NCBI RefSeq assembly: GCF_003410055.1
Contig: NZ_QUZK01000037.1
Location: 124,001 to 188,000 of the forward strand
Reading direction: 5' to 3'
DNA from: Wenzhouxiangella sediminis
Lineage (GTDB): Bacteria > Pseudomonadota > Gammaproteobacteria > Xanthomonadales > Wenzhouxiangellaceae
Length of the DNA stretch: 64,000 nt
A program made the position numbers and the translations under genes. A model generated the notes under the pieces. The model made no database searches. It worked only from the letters and a program-made list of their open reading frames with translations, and was not told the origin of the DNA. Numbering within the stretch: position 1 is the first letter of the stretch; every line of letters starts with the position of its first letter. This document shows, piece after piece, positions 54,909 to 64,000 of the stretch.

Positions 54909-57308
54909 ATGAACCAGGACAGCCGTTGGCAGCAGGTCAAGTCGTTCTATTCGGCGGCGCAGGATTTGCCGCCCGACAAGCGCGAAGCCTGGCTGGCGGA
55001 TAACTGCACGGACGCCGATATCCGGCGGGAAGTCCGGGAGTTGCTGGCGGCCGACCGGGAGGCGACCGGCTGGTTGCCCGACAGCAGCGAGCTCGGGGCA
55101 TCAGCCCCCGAACTGCCGCCGGACCTCGAGGGGCAGCGCTTCGGTCGTTTCGAGATCGTCCATCGCATCGACAGCGGCGGCATGGGCGCCGTCTGGCTGG
55201 CGCGTATCCGCGACGACGGTCGGGAAGTCGCGCTGAAGGTCATCCAGCGCGGTCTCGTCACCGACCAGGCCATGGCCCGATTCCTGCGCGAGCGCGAGAT
55301 CCTCGCACGGCTCGACCATCCCGGCATCTGCCCCATGCTCGACAGCGGCACGACGCCCGACGGCCGGCCGTTCCTTGTCATGCCCTTCCTCGAGGGCGCT
55401 GGACCGATTACCGATTATTGCGAAGCACATGCGCTCGACCTGAAGGCCCGGGTGCGTCTTTTCCGCCAGGTTTGTGTAGCGGTGCAGCACGCCCACCAGA
55501 ACCTGGTCGTCCACAGCGATCTCAAGCCCGGAAACGTTTTGGTGACCCGCGACGGGCGGGTGCAGCTGGTCGATTTCGGGATTTCCCGCCTGCTTTCGCC
55601 GGGCCACGAGGAACTGACCCGGCGCTTCGGCGAGCAGCGGCCGGCCACGCTGGACTACGCCTCACCCGAGCAACTGCGCGGCGACTCGCCCAGCACCCTG
55701 TCGGACGTCTATTCCCTGGGCGCGCTGCTTTACCGTTTGCTGGCGGGCAGAAAGGCCTACCACGTCGGGATGGGCGAGGATGCGGCGAACGACGTCGTGC
55801 CTCCTGAGCCCGCCCGCCCGGCATCCATGCCGGTCGACCTGTTCAACATCTGCCGAAAGGCCATGAGCGGCGAGCCGCAGTGTCGATACGGCTCGGCGGC
55901 CGCCCTGGGCGAAGACCTGGCCTGCTGGCTCGGCAACCGTCCGGTGGCCGCTCGCGCCCCCAGCCTGGCCTACCAGGCGGGCAAGTTTATCCGGCGAAAT
56001 TTCTGGCCCGCGGTCACCGCAGCGACCGCGCTGTCAGGAATCGTGGCGCTGACGGTTGTGCTGGCCGTCAACAATGCCCGGATTAATGCCCAGGCCGAGC
56101 GAATCGCCCTCGAGCGCGACCGGGCCGAGGCCACGGCCGAATTCTGGGCGCATTTGTTCGAGCAGACGGACCCCGTGGCCAGCGAAGCGGCCGCGCCCAG
56201 CGTCGAGCAGCTTCTCGATCGCGCCCAGGCCGAACTCACGGATTCCTCGAGCCGATTGCCGGCGGTCACGCGCGCCCGCCTGCTCGGTGTGCTGTCGACC
56301 AGCTACTGGAACCTGGCCCAGCAGCAGCGCGCCCGCGAGGCCGCGCAAGCCGCCGTGGACGCCATTTCCGAGGCCCCCGGCGAGCCCGCCGCCGCGGCCG
56401 CCGCGTGGAAGCAGCTGGCCAACATCGCCATGGCGCTAGGCGATGCGGAAGCTGCCAGAACGGCGGCGAATGCCGCGCTTTCGGCCATGCAATCGGCCCC
56501 GGGCATTCCTGCAGAACAACGGGCGTCGATCCTGGACGCACATGCCCTCGTCCTGGAAATGGAAGGTCAGCTCGAAGAGGCGGCCGCGGTGATGGAACGG
56601 GTCATCGAAATCCAGCAGACCCTGCCGCTCGAGGAGGTGATCGTCGACCACGCCACCGCCTGGGGTAACCTGGCATTCATGTATTTCAACCTGGCGCGGA
56701 GGTCCGAGGCCCCCGAACCCTGGTTCGAGCGGGCCGCCGGAGGCGTCGAGCGGTCGCTGACCCTGCTCGAGCGCCACTTCGGGCCGGATCATCCGCGCGT
56801 GGGTTTCATGCGCAACGCCTCCGGCGCGCTCAACCTGGAGCGGGGCCGTCCGCAGGCGGCCCTGGCCGATTTCCGCGCCGCAGCACGTATAGCAGAGAAG
56901 ACGCTTCCGCCGGGGCACGAGATGCTGGCTCACCTTTACTTCAACCAGGGCACGCTGCAGCGACAGCTCGGTGATCATGCCGGGGCGGAGGCCGCTTTCG
57001 CCCGCGCCTTCGAGGCCAGCAGCGGCTTCGACGACGAGCATCCGCACCGCGTTCGCTCTCTGATCGGCGTGCTGCGAGCCCGGCTCGCCCGGGGCGAGCG
57101 CGACGCCGCGCGTGCAGCGCTCGACCGACTGGCCGAGCTTTCCGGGCGCCTGGTGGAAAATCACTCCGCCCGCCTGTGGCAGCGTGTTTTCGAGCGACGC
57201 CTGGCCGCCGAGCCGATCGACCACGCGCTGGCGGCGGCGGCGCGCGAGGCCGGTGACCAGGAACTCGTCGAGTATCTCGAATCCCTGCCGGGCCCGGGCG
57301 ATGAGTGA
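54909..57308 (+). CDS. Membrane-anchored Ser/Thr protein kinase with C-terminal TPR-like domain
   Basis: A 799-residue Hanks-type kinase. The N-terminal helix pair MNQDSRWQQVKSFYSAAQDLPPDKREAWL is typical of kinases paired with ECF sigma factors. The kinase domain (about 80-345) has a G-loop IDSGGMGAVWLA (88-99), VALK Lys110, catalytic loop VHSDLKPGNV (Asp204, Asn209; HSD in place of HRD) and DFG 222-224. A transmembrane helix lies at about 366-387, with a helical repeat region behind it (about 400-790, TPR-like) predicted to be periplasmic. GGGAT precedes the ATG at 54909. The stop overlaps the ECF sigma gene by 8 bases, so signal sensing and sigma activity are probably linked. Confidence 0.92.
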   Translation: MNQDSRWQQVKSFYSAAQDLPPDKREAWLADNCTDADIRREVRELLAADREATGWLPDSSELGASAPELPPDLEGQRFGRFEIVHRIDSGGMGAVWLARIRDDGREVALKVIQRGLVTDQAMARFLREREILARLDHPGICPMLDSGTTPDGRPFLVMPFLEGAGPITDYCEAHALDLKARVRLFRQVCVAVQHAHQNLVVHSDLKPGNVLVTRDGRVQLVDFGISRLLSPGHEELTRRFGEQRPATLDYASPEQLRGDSPSTLSDVYSLGALLYRLLAGRKAYHVGMGEDAANDVVPPEPARPASMPVDLFNICRKAMSGEPQCRYGSAAALGEDLACWLGNRPVAARAPSLAYQAGKFIRRNFWPAVTAATALSGIVALTVVLAVNNARINAQAERIALERDRAEATAEFWAHLFEQTDPVASEAAAPSVEQLLDRAQAELTDSSSRLPAVTRARLLGVLSTSYWNLAQQQRAREAAQAAVDAISEAPGEPAAAAAAWKQLANIAMALGDAEAARTAANAALSAMQSAPGIPAEQRASILDAHALVLEMEGQLEEAAAVMERVIEIQQTLPLEEVIVDHATAWGNLAFMYFNLARRSEAPEPWFERAAGGVERSLTLLERHFGPDHPRVGFMRNASGALNLERGRPQAALADFRAAARIAEKTLPPGHEMLAHLYFNQGTLQRQLGDHAGAEAAFARAFEASSGFDDEHPHRVRSLIGVLRARLARGERDAARAALDRLAELSGRLVENHSARLWQRVFERRLAAEPIDHALAAAAREAGDQELVEYLESLPGPGDE

Positions 57309-57913: not shown

Positions 57914-59440
57914 TCAGCCGCCGGATTCGAAGCGGTCGCTGAACAGCAGTGGTTGGTCGGCAGGCTGGAATTCGATCGCGCCGATATCGCAAAGCGGCCC
58001 GGTGCCTCGCGCGAGTACGCTCACCGGGCGCGTCTCGCCACGTTGGTCTTCGGTCGTGTTGCCGCCGAACGGGCCGGGACATCCGCCCGCCGTCCCGCCG
58101 TCGATGGCCGGGCTGCCGGAATCGGGGATCAGCAGGAATTGCTCGAAGGGGGCGCCGGGCTCGCTGAAGCCGCTGGGGTCGCCCAGGCCCGGTGAGGTGT
58201 CGGACCGATCGGTCGCTTGTGTCGCGCAGCTGTCGCCGGAGTCGATGTTGTAGCCCGATGACTGGATCGTGCCGCCGGTCGTCGCGGTGCAGTAGGCGGA
58301 CGTCGGCCACTGGGTCGCGATGATCGAGTGATTGAAAGAAGCGCTCGCCCCGTCCCGTGCCTTCACTCCGACGTCCGACGCGATTCCGCTGCCGTTGTCG
58401 ACCAGGGTGGAATGAAAGACGGCCATCGAAGCCGAGCCGGTCAGAAGAATCGCCGAGCCGCCATCGGAGGTTGCGCTGTTGTTGCCGAACAGCGTTGCGT
58501 TGCGCAGGATGGCCGCCACGTTTGAGGCCACGGTAATGGCGCCTCCATGTTCGGCGAAGTTGGCCACGAAGCTGCTTCGCTCGATCTGGGTCAGAACCGT
58601 CCCGATCACCGCGCCGGTCTGTCGCACGTGGACTGCACCGCCCCGCGACGTTCCCGCACCCGACGGCGTGGCCTGGTTTTCCTCGAGGAGGGAGTCGACG
58701 ATCGCGAGGATGGGGACCTGGTTGGCGTAGATTGCGCCCCCGGAGGCGCCGCTGGAATTGCCCCGGAAATGGGTCGAGTCGATCGACACGGAGTCCACGC
58801 GGGTGGATTCGTTACCGGAGATCGGTTCGTTGTCGACGTGTATCGCGCCGCCCGGACCTGCGGCCTGGTTTTGGTCGATCCTGGAATCGATGATCTCGAG
58901 ACGGGTGTTGCAGCCGGTATCGGGGTTGACCAGGATTCCTCCGCCGCCGCCTGTTCCCGCGGCTTCGCTGGTCGTCACGCGAAGCGATTCGAGACGAACC
59001 GTGTCGGCGCACTCGACGAGGAGTGCGGAGCCGCCGAGAAAACCGTCGGTATAGCCGTTGGCAAGTGCGAGGTCTCTCAGCACCACGTCCTGGCCGGGTG
59101 CGTCGATTCTCATCACGCGGGTGAGCAAACTGCCGGAGACAACGGTGGTATCCCCGCCCAGGCCCTGGATTGTCACGGCTTCGGTGATGTCGAGCTGGCT
59201 GAGCAGGGGTATCCGCCCGTTCACCAGCACCGTAATCGTGTCCGCTCCTGCGCTTCCCTGATTACAGTTGTCGATAACAAGGCCGGTGTTGGCGGTGTGG
59301 ATGGCCTCTCGCAGCGAGCAGTCGCCGTCGCTGTTGAGTTCGTCGTCGACGGTGTTGACGAGAATCGAAGCACCGATCGCAATGCCGGGTACGAGCAGGC
59401 CGAATGCAAGAAGGCTCCGCAAGGTCCAGATCAGATTCAT
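57914..59440 (-). CDS. Secreted CSLREA-domain beta-helix protein
   Basis: A 508-residue exported protein. The signal peptide (MNLIWTLRSLLAFGLLVPGIAIGA) is followed by the CSLREA module (ILVNTVDDELNSDGDCSLREAIHTAN) and then a right-handed parallel beta-helix built of repeats such as DSRIDQNQAAGPGGAIHV and SSFVANFAEHGGAITV. It then has the choice-of-anchor-Q-like end (SPAIDGGTAGG, DQRGETRPV, CDIGAIEFQPADQP). The C-terminus is LLFSDRFESGG, shared with the paralogue at 60376. GGAGG precedes the ATG at 59440. Probably surface-attached or released; substrate unknown. Confidence 0.88.
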   Translation of the reverse strand: MNLIWTLRSLLAFGLLVPGIAIGASILVNTVDDELNSDGDCSLREAIHTANTGLVIDNCNQGSAGADTITVLVNGRIPLLSQLDITEAVTIQGLGGDTTVVSGSLLTRVMRIDAPGQDVVLRDLALANGYTDGFLGGSALLVECADTVRLESLRVTTSEAAGTGGGGGILVNPDTGCNTRLEIIDSRIDQNQAAGPGGAIHVDNEPISGNESTRVDSVSIDSTHFRGNSSGASGGAIYANQVPILAIVDSLLEENQATPSGAGTSRGGAVHVRQTGAVIGTVLTQIERSSFVANFAEHGGAITVASNVAAILRNATLFGNNSATSDGGSAILLTGSASMAVFHSTLVDNGSGIASDVGVKARDGASASFNHSIIATQWPTSAYCTATTGGTIQSSGYNIDSGDSCATQATDRSDTSPGLGDPSGFSEPGAPFEQFLLIPDSGSPAIDGGTAGGCPGPFGGNTTEDQRGETRPVSVLARGTGPLCDIGAIEFQPADQPLLFSDRFESGG

Positions 59441-59532
59441 CGTTTGCCTCCGAGGGTCGGGTCGCTTCTTGGCGGTCATCGGCCCGGGTCCCTGGCGCCC
59501 TCGCGAGCACCGGGGAAGTTGCCGGCAACGAT

Positions 59533-60288
59533 TCAGTCGTTGTTGCCCAGATCCACGCCCTGACCGACGTAGGCGCGGGAGACCTCGGCGGTCAGGTTGT
59601 CGCGGAAGCGCACGGCCGAACCGCCGAACAGCCGGAAGCCGTACTGAGCCTGCTGGACGCGATTGCCGGCGATGAGGGCGGCGTTGCCGTTGGACGTGCC
59701 GATACCGATCGAGTTCTCGCCGACAACCGACATCACGTCGTTATCGACGATGGCGTTGCCCGAGCCTTGCACCTGGATGCCGGCCGCGAATTCAACGCCT
59801 CGCGCGAATCCGGTGCGAAACACGTGGTTGCCGCGAACGGTTGCATTCCACGCGTCGAGAAAGATGCCGTAGCTCCCCGACTGGTGAACGTTCATGTTCT
59901 CGATCGTGTGACCGATCGAGCAGCCGTCGCAGGCGCTCACGCCCTCGATGCCCCGTCCGAAACACGACACGCTGCCGTTGCGCACGGTCACATTGGCGAC
60001 CGCGCCGGTGATGCCAATCCCGACCGTCGGTGCGTCGAGCAGTTCGTTCGGACAATAGCCATCGGCGTTGCCCTGGTTGGACAGCGCGAAGCCGTTGAGA
60101 TCGAGCGTGACGTTACCGGCGTCGACGAAAATCGCCTCGCCGCTGGAGATTCGAACGTTTGCCGGGGCGTCCAGGCAATAGCGCCCGGGTGCATCGATGG
60201 TCGCTGGAAAGCGGGTCAGTGGCTTGCAGTCCGCGTGGGCGGCAAGCGCGGCCAGGGCGGTCGTTACCAGGAGACTGATTCGAAGCAT
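59533..60288 (-). CDS. Secreted right-handed parallel beta-helix protein
   Basis: A 251-residue exported protein with signal peptide MLRISLLVTTALAALAAHA. The mature chain begins with CKPLTRFPATIDAPGRYCLD and continues as a pectate-lyase-like beta-helix with short repeats (VTLDLNGFALSNQ, VTVRNGSVSCFGRGIEGV, NATVRGNHVFRTG, NAIVDNDVMSVVGENS, AALIAGNRVQQAQYG). It lacks the CSLREA module and the FSDRFE end of its neighbours. No catalytic residues of pectate lyases can be named, so it may be structural or a carbohydrate-binding helix. Confidence 0.82.
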   Translation of the reverse strand: MLRISLLVTTALAALAAHADCKPLTRFPATIDAPGRYCLDAPANVRISSGEAIFVDAGNVTLDLNGFALSNQGNADGYCPNELLDAPTVGIGITGAVANVTVRNGSVSCFGRGIEGVSACDGCSIGHTIENMNVHQSGSYGIFLDAWNATVRGNHVFRTGFARGVEFAAGIQVQGSGNAIVDNDVMSVVGENSIGIGTSNGNAALIAGNRVQQAQYGFRLFGGSAVRFRDNLTAEVSRAYVGQGVDLGNND

Positions 60289-60375
60289 GACGATGGTCCT
60301 CTGATGAAACTCGGGTTCTGAATCTCCTATCGGAGCGCGACGGCCAATCGGCTCATTCCCCGCGACGCTTTCGAT

Positions 60376-61887
60376 TCACGGGCTGCCTTCGAACCGGTCG
60401 GAGAAGATCACCGGGTTGTCGGCTGGCTGAAACTCCACCGCGCCGATATCGCACTGCGCCTCGCCCGACGCATCGCCGTCGATGGCGCGCGTCTGACCGC
60501 GCTGGTCGGTCGCCAGCGTTGCGCCGAAGGCGCCCGCGCACGGACCGACGCTGCCCCCGTCGATGGCGGGACTGCCGCTCAGCGGAAGGAACGTCTCCAG
60601 CATCGCCCAACTGGTGTCGTCGCCGAAGTCGTCGAGCATCGACAGGTTCGGGTCCGTCATCGGCAGATCGTCGGCATGCCCGGTACACGTGCCGCTGGTG
60701 TCGATATTGAAGCCGAGCGAGTTGAACACCGAGTCGGTGCTCGTCAACTTGCATTCCGGCTCCGACTCGGAACCTTCTGTCCAGACGATGCTGTGGCCGA
60801 GCGAGAGCGTGCTTGACTCGCCGATCGAGAAAACGCTGTCGGTCGGCCGTCCGGACAGGTCGTTTCCCACCAGAGTGCTGAAGAACACACTGGCGGTCGT
60901 GTCGAACCGAAGATGGACGGCGTTGCCGAAGTTCGAGCCCGAGTAGTTGCCGGTGAACGTGCTGTTCTCGACGATCAGCACGGAGCCGGATATGGCGGAA
61001 ATGGCGCCGCCGCCGCTATCGGCATTGTTGTCGTCAAACGTGGACGAGGTAATTCGCACGAGGTCGGAGGACCGGAGACTGAGGGCACCGCCGGCGATCG
61101 CACCGTTCGACGTACCTTCCGCGATGTTGCCGCTGAAGACGCTTCGGTCGATCGCGATCGCTCGTACATCATCGGCGTAGATGACGCCCCCGCTGAGCCC
61201 GGCGGAATTCCCGATGAAGCTCGATTCTTCGATCAGCAGGCTGTCGAGCGGTTCTTGCCCGGGAAATCCCGCAAGGTATATGGCGCCGCCGCGACCGGCT
61301 GCCGAGTTGTTTTCGAAGCGCGATCGAATCACCTCGAGGCGGGTGATGTCTTCGGATTCGACCGGCAGCTGCACGGCGATGGCCCCTCCGGGCGCGTCTC
61401 CGTTCGTCTGGTTGCCGGCGACTCGAAGTTGCTCGAGGCGGATGGTGCCTCCGCGCTGGATCCAGAGGGCGGCGCCGGGGACGGCCTCCGAGCCGTCGGC
61501 CAGCGTCAGGAGTCTGATCTCGACGTCGTGCGTATCGTCGGGCGCGTTGATGATGAAGATCGAGCTCGCGCCCTGGCCGGAGATGGTCAGGCTGTCGCGA
61601 CCCGCTCCGAACAGATCGACGCGTTCGGTGATCTGGATGGCATTGCCCAGATTGATCGTGCCGGTCACGCCGATGAAGATGGAATCGGTGCCAATGCTGT
61701 CTCCGGCGGTGCAGCTGTCGAAGGCCGTGTTCTGGTTGGCCGACTGGATCGCTTCCCGCAGCGAACAGTCGCCGTCCGCATTGGCTTCGTCGTCCAGGGT
61801 GTTGACCGTGATGAATGCGGCCAGCGCGCTGGCCGGGGCGAAAAGCGCCGATAACAGGGCACATCGAAGGAGGAATGTGTGAATCAT
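60376..61887 (-). CDS. Secreted CSLREA-domain beta-helix protein (paralogue)
   Basis: A 503-residue exported paralogue of the protein at 57914. After the signal peptide (MIHTFLLRCALLSALFAPASALAA) comes FITVNTLDDEANADGDCSLREAIQSANQN, then beta-helix repeats (SRFENNSAAGRGGAIYL, SSFIGNSAGLSGGVIY, STFDDNNADSGGGAIS). The C-terminal block is SPAIDGGSVGPCAGAFG, DQRGQTRAIDGD, CDIGAVEFQPADNPVIFSDRFEGSP. The longer open frame upstream is not signal-like, so the ATG at 61887 was chosen, with only a weak AGG site. The last nine residues repeat the FSDRFE motif of the paralogue. Confidence 0.88.
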   Translation of the reverse strand: MIHTFLLRCALLSALFAPASALAAFITVNTLDDEANADGDCSLREAIQSANQNTAFDSCTAGDSIGTDSIFIGVTGTINLGNAIQITERVDLFGAGRDSLTISGQGASSIFIINAPDDTHDVEIRLLTLADGSEAVPGAALWIQRGGTIRLEQLRVAGNQTNGDAPGGAIAVQLPVESEDITRLEVIRSRFENNSAAGRGGAIYLAGFPGQEPLDSLLIEESSFIGNSAGLSGGVIYADDVRAIAIDRSVFSGNIAEGTSNGAIAGGALSLRSSDLVRITSSTFDDNNADSGGGAISAISGSVLIVENSTFTGNYSGSNFGNAVHLRFDTTASVFFSTLVGNDLSGRPTDSVFSIGESSTLSLGHSIVWTEGSESEPECKLTSTDSVFNSLGFNIDTSGTCTGHADDLPMTDPNLSMLDDFGDDTSWAMLETFLPLSGSPAIDGGSVGPCAGAFGATLATDQRGQTRAIDGDASGEAQCDIGAVEFQPADNPVIFSDRFEGSP

Positions 61888-63119: not shown

Positions 63120-64000
63120 TCAGGGCATCGGGGTGAGTGCGTCGACCGCTCTCAGCTCGATCGCGCCGACATCGCAGTTGGCGCCCGGCTGCCCCGACGC
63201 GTAGTCGACGGGCCGTGTTCGCCCGAGCCGGTCGTGGTCGATCGACGAGCCGTGCAGATCGCCGCAGGCGTATGGCGGAACGGCATCGACGGCGGCGTAG
63301 TGATAGGGATCCGGCGCGGGAACGGGATAGGCCGATGTCCCGCCGCGGGTTCGGTAGAGGGTCATCTGCGCGTGATCGACGTCACCCGGACCGTTGAGTC
63401 GGCACGAACCAGTATCGAGCTCGAGGTTGTAGCCCATTGAAGTCAGGCCCCGGGGCTGGCAGACGGCCCACGCGTTTCCGGGGCGCATCAGGTTGCCGGC
63501 CAGCCAGAGCGTGTCCGGGGCGTCGTTGACCAGGGCGGGTGCTGCGCCGCCCCGGTCGTTGTCGACGAGCGTGGAGAACAGGAGCTGCGATTGCCCGCTC
63601 GCACCGGTCAGTTGCAGGACCTGTATGGCCCCGGCGTAAGGGCTGCCGTTGCGCTCGAAAACCGAATTGGCGATGCGAAGCCGGTCGGCGACGACGAACA
63701 AAGCGCCCGATTCCTGCGCGCGATTGCCGACGAACGTGCTGCGGGTCAGGTCGAGTTCGGCCTCGTCCAGCGAGGCGATGGCCCCGGACAGGCCGCCGAG
63801 CGACTGGTTGCCGACAAACAAGCTGTCGGACACGTCGACCCGGATCGGACCGGCGCCGTCGAGCAGGAGTCCGCCGGACAGGTCGCCGGCATTGCCCAGG
63901 AAGTCGACATCGTCCAGGGACAGGCGCAGGGTCTCGCCCACGACGGCCAGCGGGCTGTCGCCGCCCTCGTTGCCTTCGAAGCTCGAGTGCCGGATCGAGA
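63120..64000 (-). CDS. Secreted beta-helix protein (partial, N-terminus beyond window)
   Basis: The C-terminal part (about 293 codons) of another beta-helix protein; the frame is open to the right edge (RHSSFEGNEGG... just inside it). Repeats such as VDFLGNAGDLSGGLLL, DSLFVGNQSLGGLSGAIASL and NSVFERNGSPYAGAIQVL are of the same type as in the two CSLREA proteins. The end contains YACGDLHGSS, RLGRTRPVD and CDVGAIELRAVDALTPMP, homologous to the choice-of-anchor-Q block, but without the FSDRFE motif. The CSLREA module, if present, is outside the window. Confidence 0.82.
   Translation of the reverse strand, partial: SIRHSSFEGNEGGDSPLAVVGETLRLSLDDVDFLGNAGDLSGGLLLDGAGPIRVDVSDSLFVGNQSLGGLSGAIASLDEAELDLTRSTFVGNRAQESGALFVVADRLRIANSVFERNGSPYAGAIQVLQLTGASGQSQLLFSTLVDNDRGGAAPALVNDAPDTLWLAGNLMRPGNAWAVCQPRGLTSMGYNLELDTGSCRLNGPGDVDHAQMTLYRTRGGTSAYPVPAPDPYHYAAVDAVPPYACGDLHGSSIDHDRLGRTRPVDYASGQPGANCDVGAIELRAVDALTPMP

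Follow-up and report, generated by a model that had tools for sequence, protein, structure and literature searches.

Short C-terminal homology regions such as GlyGly-CTERM, PEP-CTERM, IPTL-CTERM and MYXO-CTERM occur on many unrelated exported proteins of one genome, and species with GlyGly-CTERM generally also possess type II secretion systems (T2SSs), as stated in PMC3237569. The type A sorting domain of the type IX secretion system (T9SS; TIGR04183) is likewise located at the C-terminus, has no membrane anchor and serves an outer-membrane secretion route. Known T2SS signals are structural: folded periplasmic cargo is recognized, as with the GspC PDZ domain and the Ig/Fn3 folds of VesB and PelI, the second periplasmic domain of GspC, often a PDZ domain, has been proposed as docking site, and no linear universal or conserved signal has been identified according to two articles (PMC12369372, PMC11981180). 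In a 64,000-nucleotide stretch of DNA from Wenzhouxiangella sediminis, called the window in the following, two genes for predicted secreted beta-helix proteins end in a short tail with the motif FSDRFE. Unlike the known T2SS signals this tail is a linear C-terminal motif, and it is very probably a genuine sorting-type tag. With the CTERM families it shares the occurrence on many unrelated exported proteins of one genome, but it differs from them in having about 7 conserved residues, no TM (transmembrane) segment found and no match to CTERM models. It resembles the T9SS signal in lacking a membrane anchor, and with about 7-13 residues differs from that 72-position domain model.

Tailed proteins of the window and the genome

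57914..59440, minus strand: tagged protein 1, 508 aa, with signal peptide, CSLREA start, beta-helix repeats, choice-of-anchor Q domain and tail LLFSDRFESGG
57927..57943, minus strand: tail-motif codons F-S-D-R-F-(E) of protein 1, 3 residues before the stop (G000:C32:181927-181943)
60376..61887, minus strand: tagged protein 2, 503 aa, architecture as protein 1, tail VIFSDRFEGSP
60389..60405, minus strand: tail-motif codons F-S-D-R-F-(E) of protein 2 (G000:C32:184389-184405)
63120..63998, minus strand: third homologue without tail, crossing the window edge; its complete form in the genome has 463 aa

Translation of the open reading frames (ORFs) confirmed the two endings given in the earlier note (protein 1, ORF 57914-59440, minus strand: ...CDIGAIEFQPADQPLLFSDRFESGG; protein 2, ORF 60376-61887, minus strand: ...CDIGAVEFQPADNPVIFSDRFEGSP) as well as its observation that the third homologue stops before the tail: the complete form ends in ...CDVGAIELRAVDALTPMP and, judged by eye, has a signal peptide and a CSLREA-like start. 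The start codons of both tagged ORFs are those chosen by our in-house gene caller. Both tagged proteins scored above the cut-offs of CSLREA (TIGR04214; 36.5 and 32.2 bits) and choice-of-anchor Q (NF041518; 42.5 and 43.4 bits, cut-off 25). With 47.5 and 59.6 bits, they stayed below the curated cut-off of 295 for Rhombotarget A (TIGR04212). They share 43% identity and thus are not very recent duplicates; the nearest named match, at 41% identity, came from Wenzhouxiangella. In an AlphaFold model of the 503-aa protein 2 (9 sequences; mean pLDDT, the predicted local distance difference test, 70) the beta-helix core was confident and the tail region, residues 436-503, was of very low confidence (pLDDT <50), which is consistent with a flexible tail but also with the shallow alignment.

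A search of the 3.5-Mb genome on the DNA level with the pattern F-x-D-[R/G/S/C/W]-F-[E/D] gave 60 matches versus 6 for the reversed pattern serving as control. Among ORFs of at least 60 codons, 35 of the 60 matches were strictly C-terminal, with the form [hydrophobic]-F-x-D-R-F-E followed by up to 9 residues and the stop; the tail is therefore not limited to the two window genes. Four further matches were located near a stop, of which three look genuine (FSDGFEG, FGDRFDQ, FGDRFEP) and one looks cytosolic by eye, and 21 were located elsewhere. Placement was also analyzed in 718 genes called in 41 regions from three genomes, namely the window and 40 stretches picked around tag sites, by a crude in-house codon-score caller (several high-GC regions of the study were read with a fixed score table or by coordinates). 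In this set, 66 genes end within 8 residues after the motif and one more at 9, and none carries the [DN][RG] form of the motif at a non-terminal site. The 32 tagged genes considered in W. sediminis have D in 32, R in 31 and E in 32 cases, and I, L, V or M precedes the first F in all 32; in 29 tagged genes of genome G405 (family f185) the counts are D 22 and N 7, G 28, and E 27 and D 2, and 19 of these genes stop immediately behind the E or D. Across nine divergent CSLREA-type/beta-helix proteins of W. sediminis with a mean column identity of 30%, the tail residues F, D, R, F and E are invariant. Chance, a recent duplication of two genes or a base-composition artefact, the last of which was encountered in one genome outside the order (G249, 63 versus 13 matches), has virtually no probability as an explanation; it was rejected in view of 60 versus 6 matches, 35 strict C-terminal tails, invariant residues in divergent proteins and the order-wide spread described below.

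No Pfam or NCBIfam model matched the tail itself in 10 tails scanned with E-values up to 10, the only hits being an edge of choice-of-anchor Q and an FG-GAP repeat. No description of this tail was found in the open PMC literature, although word searches are poorly suited to finding so short a motif. As a side observation, the motif was found inside proteins of G405 (L094, L108) and of W. sediminis (L030, L033), by eye between a first domain and an apparent FG-GAP domain, ahead of 139 extra residues, or N-terminal to an apparent DUF1800 protein at a contig start. Such proteins may be fusions or result from read-through.

Tagged proteins are predicted to be exported

Signal peptides and TM segments were predicted by crude in-house tests, leaving out 36 genes that were cut by region ends or shorter than 60 aa. 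A signal peptide was predicted in 57 of 64 tagged versus 231 of 618 untagged genes, and some of the seven missing ones are uncertain due to uncertain start codons. Later TM segments were found in none of the 57 tagged genes with signal peptide versus 59 of the 231 untagged ones. By these tests, 57 of the 64 tagged proteins have the features of type II cargo, i.e. a Sec/Tat signal peptide and no membrane anchor. This enrichment on secreted proteins supports the earlier proposal of a sorting, anchoring or secretion tag; the tail looks like an address label toward the cell surface. The 64 proteins span many families, the 25 commonest including beta-helix, subtilase, M14, M28, kelch, endonuclease I, ExeM/NucH and SpoIID as well as choice-of-anchor B, D, O and Q. 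Some of these proteins are similar to enzymes known to be secreted, namely ExeM/NucH and LapA aminopeptidase.

Distribution of the tail

The order survey comprised 348 genomes, searched with the [DN][RG] pattern, from what we take to be the Xanthomonadales of GTDB; 369 genomes were included in a survey of the class. The usual form in relatives across the order is F-x-[DN]-G-F-[ED], and the DGFE-like endings that the earlier note mentioned for Xanthomonadales are real and widespread in this order. Counts were high in most of f1, the family of W. sediminis, in f184, f185, f186, f187 and f192, and in most of f190. In f3 they were high only in the genera g4, g296, g325 (up to 204 raw motif matches in one genome, not confirmed one by one) and g333, and in f2 clearly so only in g319 and g340. 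True tails were present at 21 of 27 loci read, from 12 of 13 genomes of the order. Among named relatives, the tag is present for example in Wenzhouxiangella, Pseudofulvimonas and Dokdonella, of which NCBI taxonomy assigns the latter two to Lysobacterales and Wenzhouxiangella to Chromatiales.

Outside the order no clear enrichment was observed among the 369 genomes of the class, perhaps apart from G192 (29 versus 9 matches). The high count of G249 was rejected as an artefact, because none of three loci read showed a convincing tail; its matches look rich in CGATCG. With a stop-anchored variant of the pattern no genome outside the order exceeded 8 matches, although this variant is insensitive: it gave 0 in W. 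sediminis, since the tails of this genome continue past the E. The tag is measured only noisily by raw motif counts. A stop-anchored pattern that detects only tails ending in GFE, and that gave 2 and 3 in the tag-rich genomes G395 and G642, found zero in seven genomes of f2 and f3 whose raw counts were borderline or ambiguous. In the following, tag-rich denotes genomes with at least 20 matches and 2.5 times the control (108 genomes) and tag-poor those with at most 12 (195 genomes).

This distribution also bears on the idea of a tail without any receptor, which would cap or stabilize the C-terminus or shield it from periplasmic proteases and would have spread by duplication and domain shuffling. 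Tails following very different domains, and motifs that are sometimes internal or carry longer extensions, would fit. A near-fixed sequence and distance to the stop after unrelated domains, in many families and restricted to one order, renders such a role improbable.

Homologues in other lineages and the search for a processing enzyme

C-termini of homologues of the window proteins were read at 35 of 80 loci, and 10 of these 35 tails were scored against sorting-domain models. Nine proteobacterial homologues end in the tail or a variant of it (DRFE, SGFE, DSFE, DSYE, DGFE, DGFD, NGFN); eight of them are labelled as gammaproteobacteria or genera thereof and L152 only as proteobacterium. Three other homologues exceeded the cut-offs of sorting-domain models: MYXO-CTERM in a Myxococcales metagenome-assembled genome (MAG) (L211; 22.7 bits, cut-off 20), IPTL-CTERM in a betaproteobacterium (L186; 24.6 bits, cut-off 20.5) and T9SS type A (TIGR04183) in a Bacteroidota MAG (L222; 34.4 bits, cut-off 23). 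Thus, the position of the tail is one that sorting or anchoring domains, IPTL-CTERM and MYXO-CTERM included, can occupy in other lineages. The remaining tails scored below the cut-offs (L156, L162, L178), matched solely and far below the cut-off a MYXO-CTERM-anchored family (L202), matched no model (L207) or matched choice-of-anchor Q only (L155, L158). The Chloroflexota homologues L155, L158 and L176 end in another short tail (SFILMPIISR, PIYLPIIHR and FLIYLPVIVR), perhaps a second unrecognized C-terminal tag.

The tail could be the recognition site of a processing, modifying or anchoring enzyme, similar to a sortase signal but without the membrane-spanning part. Such an enzyme would fit the many-to-one design with dozens of cargoes in the W. 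sediminis genome and the sorting domains that some homologues carry at this position, but we consider it unlikely. The combination of motif, TM segment and basic residues that marks PEP-, IPTL- and MYXO-CTERM was not found, with later hydrophobic segments in 0 of 57 proteins by the crude test and no match of an NCBIfam model to any of 10 tails. These tails likewise matched neither GlyGly-CTERM nor TIGR04183; T9SS machinery was not searched for. Rhombosortase was the only enzyme to which the search extended; of 26 genomes, two tag-poor ones had a match above the cut-off, and none of the 16 tag-rich ones did, so that the co-occurring processing enzyme considered in the earlier note gained no support; the tag-rich genome G514 came just short with 80.1 bits (cut-off 84). 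Nor was a dedicated enzyme seen beside tagged genes among the 45 largest clusters listed from the 718 genes of the 41 regions, in which regulators, other cargo and housekeeping genes made up most of the recurrent neighbours.

Two type II secretion systems in tag-rich genomes

A GspD family search in 45 genomes of the order revealed two full-length secretins in tag-rich genomes. In a GspD tree of 40 rows, clade A (14 rows, support 100/99) contained all 13 tag-rich genomes entered and G565, which is 84% complete and has the tag at background level. The Xps-like clade B comprised genomes both with and without the tag. Neither the second GspDs of G274 and G425 nor the single GspD of G593 belonged to clade A. 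In W. sediminis and G514 the clade A gspD is part of a gspC-D-E-F cluster between thioredoxin/DEAD-box helicase-like and ftsEX-like genes, and a separate gspG-N cluster lies beside rsmE- or bioA-like genes. This system, T2SS-A, therefore has the gene content of a type II system, where GspC, GspD and GspG were named by family models and E, F and H-N by position, length and look only. A second high-scoring GspG was found in each of the 16 tag-rich genomes searched but not in any of the 17 tag-poor ones, among which G651 is ambiguous by raw count and zero by the stop-anchored pattern. It was also found in the reduced genome G448 with the tag at background level and in the tag-less G620 and G698; in G384 the family search found no GspG.

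The GspC of T2SS-A matched the T2SSC and PDZ models, exceeding the PDZ cut-off in 2 of 4 proteins, and its profile matched PDZ structures of PulC and GspC and also OutC and DegQ. Three GspC proteins of the Xps-like system, T2SS-B, had no Pfam match and hence no detectable PDZ domain; that of G465 is XpsN by NCBIfam.

G620 (L339) and G698 (L340) encode a clade A-like system as one compact gspC-N operon adjoining a lipoprotein gene that resembles di-heme cytochrome c peroxidases below the family cut-off. No true tails were present at four loci read in G620 and one in G698, and both systems joined the branch of G455 and G600 in a second, quicker tree. This suggests a transfer with private cargo. 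The two lipoproteins end alike, in -EYLKSL and -QYLKSL.

Co-occurrence of tail and T2SS-A

With 45 of the 348 genomes left out as ambiguous, the GspD of T2SS-A was found in 92 of 108 tag-rich genomes (88 full-length, 4 fragments) versus 14 of 195 tag-poor ones. The tail may be the address by which T2SS-A picks its cargo, a reading that we rank as the best single mechanism while giving it slightly less than an even chance. It is favoured because the cargo is predicted to be Sec-exported and soluble, because two T2SSs coexist of which one tracks the tag, and because the GspC of T2SS-A has a kind of domain that PMC12369372 connects with cargo selection elsewhere.

A protein chosen as control raised a different possibility. 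This exported protein (L277:11141-12697) is encoded downstream of the Xps-like T2SS-B gspD in W. sediminis, has several matches in many relatives and matched no NCBIfam or PDB entry. Since npdA, an S-layer gene, lies downstream of 12 gsp genes and has orthologs in Wenzhouxiangella, Dokdonella, Tahibacter and other genera (PMC10765051), the control protein probably is an NpdA-like S-layer protein, an assignment by neighbourhood and taxonomy rather than by sequence comparison, and thus is less a control than a rival partner. The proteins could be secreted by means of other information, with the tail tethering them non-covalently to the surface, e.g. to an NpdA-like S-layer lattice. Such docking is fairly unlikely, a shade less so than an enzyme. 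In its favour, this family was present in 99 of 108 tag-rich versus 16 of 195 tag-poor genomes, anchoring or sorting domains occupy the same place in some homologues, and Wenzhouxiangella AB-CW3 excretes no proteolytic activity into the medium, from which surface-anchored proteases were inferred (PMC7691419). When both candidates were combined, 87 of 105 genomes with T2SS-A and the S-layer-like gene were tag-rich, compared to 5 of 17 with T2SS-A only, 12 of 34 with the S-layer-like gene only and 4 of 192 with neither; of the 12, eight are assemblies that are 77-96% complete and four belong to f189, G427 and G461 among them. Against docking, PMC10765051 reports npdA from many genera outside the order, where no clear tag enrichment was seen.

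Family f189 separates the two candidate partners. Its seven genomes with T2SS-A (one as a fragment) have 9, 5, 4, 0, 0, 0 and 0 stop-anchored tags, in total 18, whereas its 32 genomes without T2SS-A have five single ones, although 24 of these 32 carry the S-layer-like gene; this speaks for T2SS-A and against docking.

Several results weigh against T2SS-A as the reader of the tail. The equally close tracking by the S-layer-like protein implies that shared ancestry explains part of the co-occurrence. Few independent gains and losses may underlie these counts, and the Fisher test applied to them ignores shared ancestry, so that its p-value is no measure of strength. All 18 f189 tags are confined to one genus. 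T2SS-A does not require the tag, because T2SS-A-like systems are present without it in G620, G698, G593, G638 and G679, and reduced f1 genomes such as G448 retain T2SS-A with the tag at background level and true tails at none of four loci. Two or three GspD genes were also found in the tag-poor genomes G274, G425 and G438. Conversely, 16 tag-rich genomes had no T2SS-A match, of which ten, outside f189, are 73-96% complete; the search scored only the top 3 candidates per genome. One of the 16, the f189 genome G427, is 97% complete and has a genuine tag at one of four loci; in G461 of the same family none of four was a true tail. No clustering of tagged genes at T2SS-A loci was seen (5 in 531 kb). 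Finally, in classical PDZ binding a fixed C-terminal residue is bound, which does not go well with a motif followed by a varying number of residues (0-9).

Under the T2SS-A reading, the tail would be a short, linear tag by which folded Sec-exported proteins are sorted. As the predicted signal peptides suggest, the cargo would cross the inner membrane by the Sec route and then fold, while its last 7-13 or so residues, hydrophobic-F-x-[DN]-[RG]-F-[ED], would remain accessible, for which the very low confidence in one model, as expected of a flexible tail, would be in keeping. The cargo would then pass the T2SS-A secretin to the surface or the outside, and the Xps-like T2SS-B, whose GspC lacks a detectable PDZ domain, would handle untagged cargo. 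For Vibrio, PMC12369372 reports that the EpsC PDZ domain is needed for secretion of one cargo. We also put forward, somewhat more tentatively, that the tail could be the first linear, transplantable T2SS address, bound by the GspC PDZ domain, separating the cargo of two coexisting T2SSs and replacing membrane-anchored CTERM signals within this order.

Neighbouring genes

A 251-aa ORF with a likely signal peptide and no tail (59533-60288, minus strand) lies between the two tagged genes of the window. Beside this pair are encoded a serine/threonine kinase-like protein (54909-57308, plus strand) and, adjoining it, an ECF-type (extracytoplasmic function) sigma factor of TIGR02999 (57301-57897, plus strand; 193 bits, cut-off 126). 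Relatives of both recur around tagged genes, with 9 kinase genes in 8 of the 41 regions and 8 sigma-factor genes in 7. Possibly these proteins are regulators of the tagged secretome.

Implications

Whatever the receptor, the tail provides a simple annotation marker for part of the exported proteome in many families of the order, one that the two family libraries scanned, Pfam and NCBIfam, do not flag. How T2SSs choose their cargo, for which no conserved or linear signal is known according to PMC11981180 and PMC12369372, becomes directly testable with this tail, since dozens of cargoes bear the 7 residues in cells with two T2SSs, one with and one without a detectable GspC PDZ domain.

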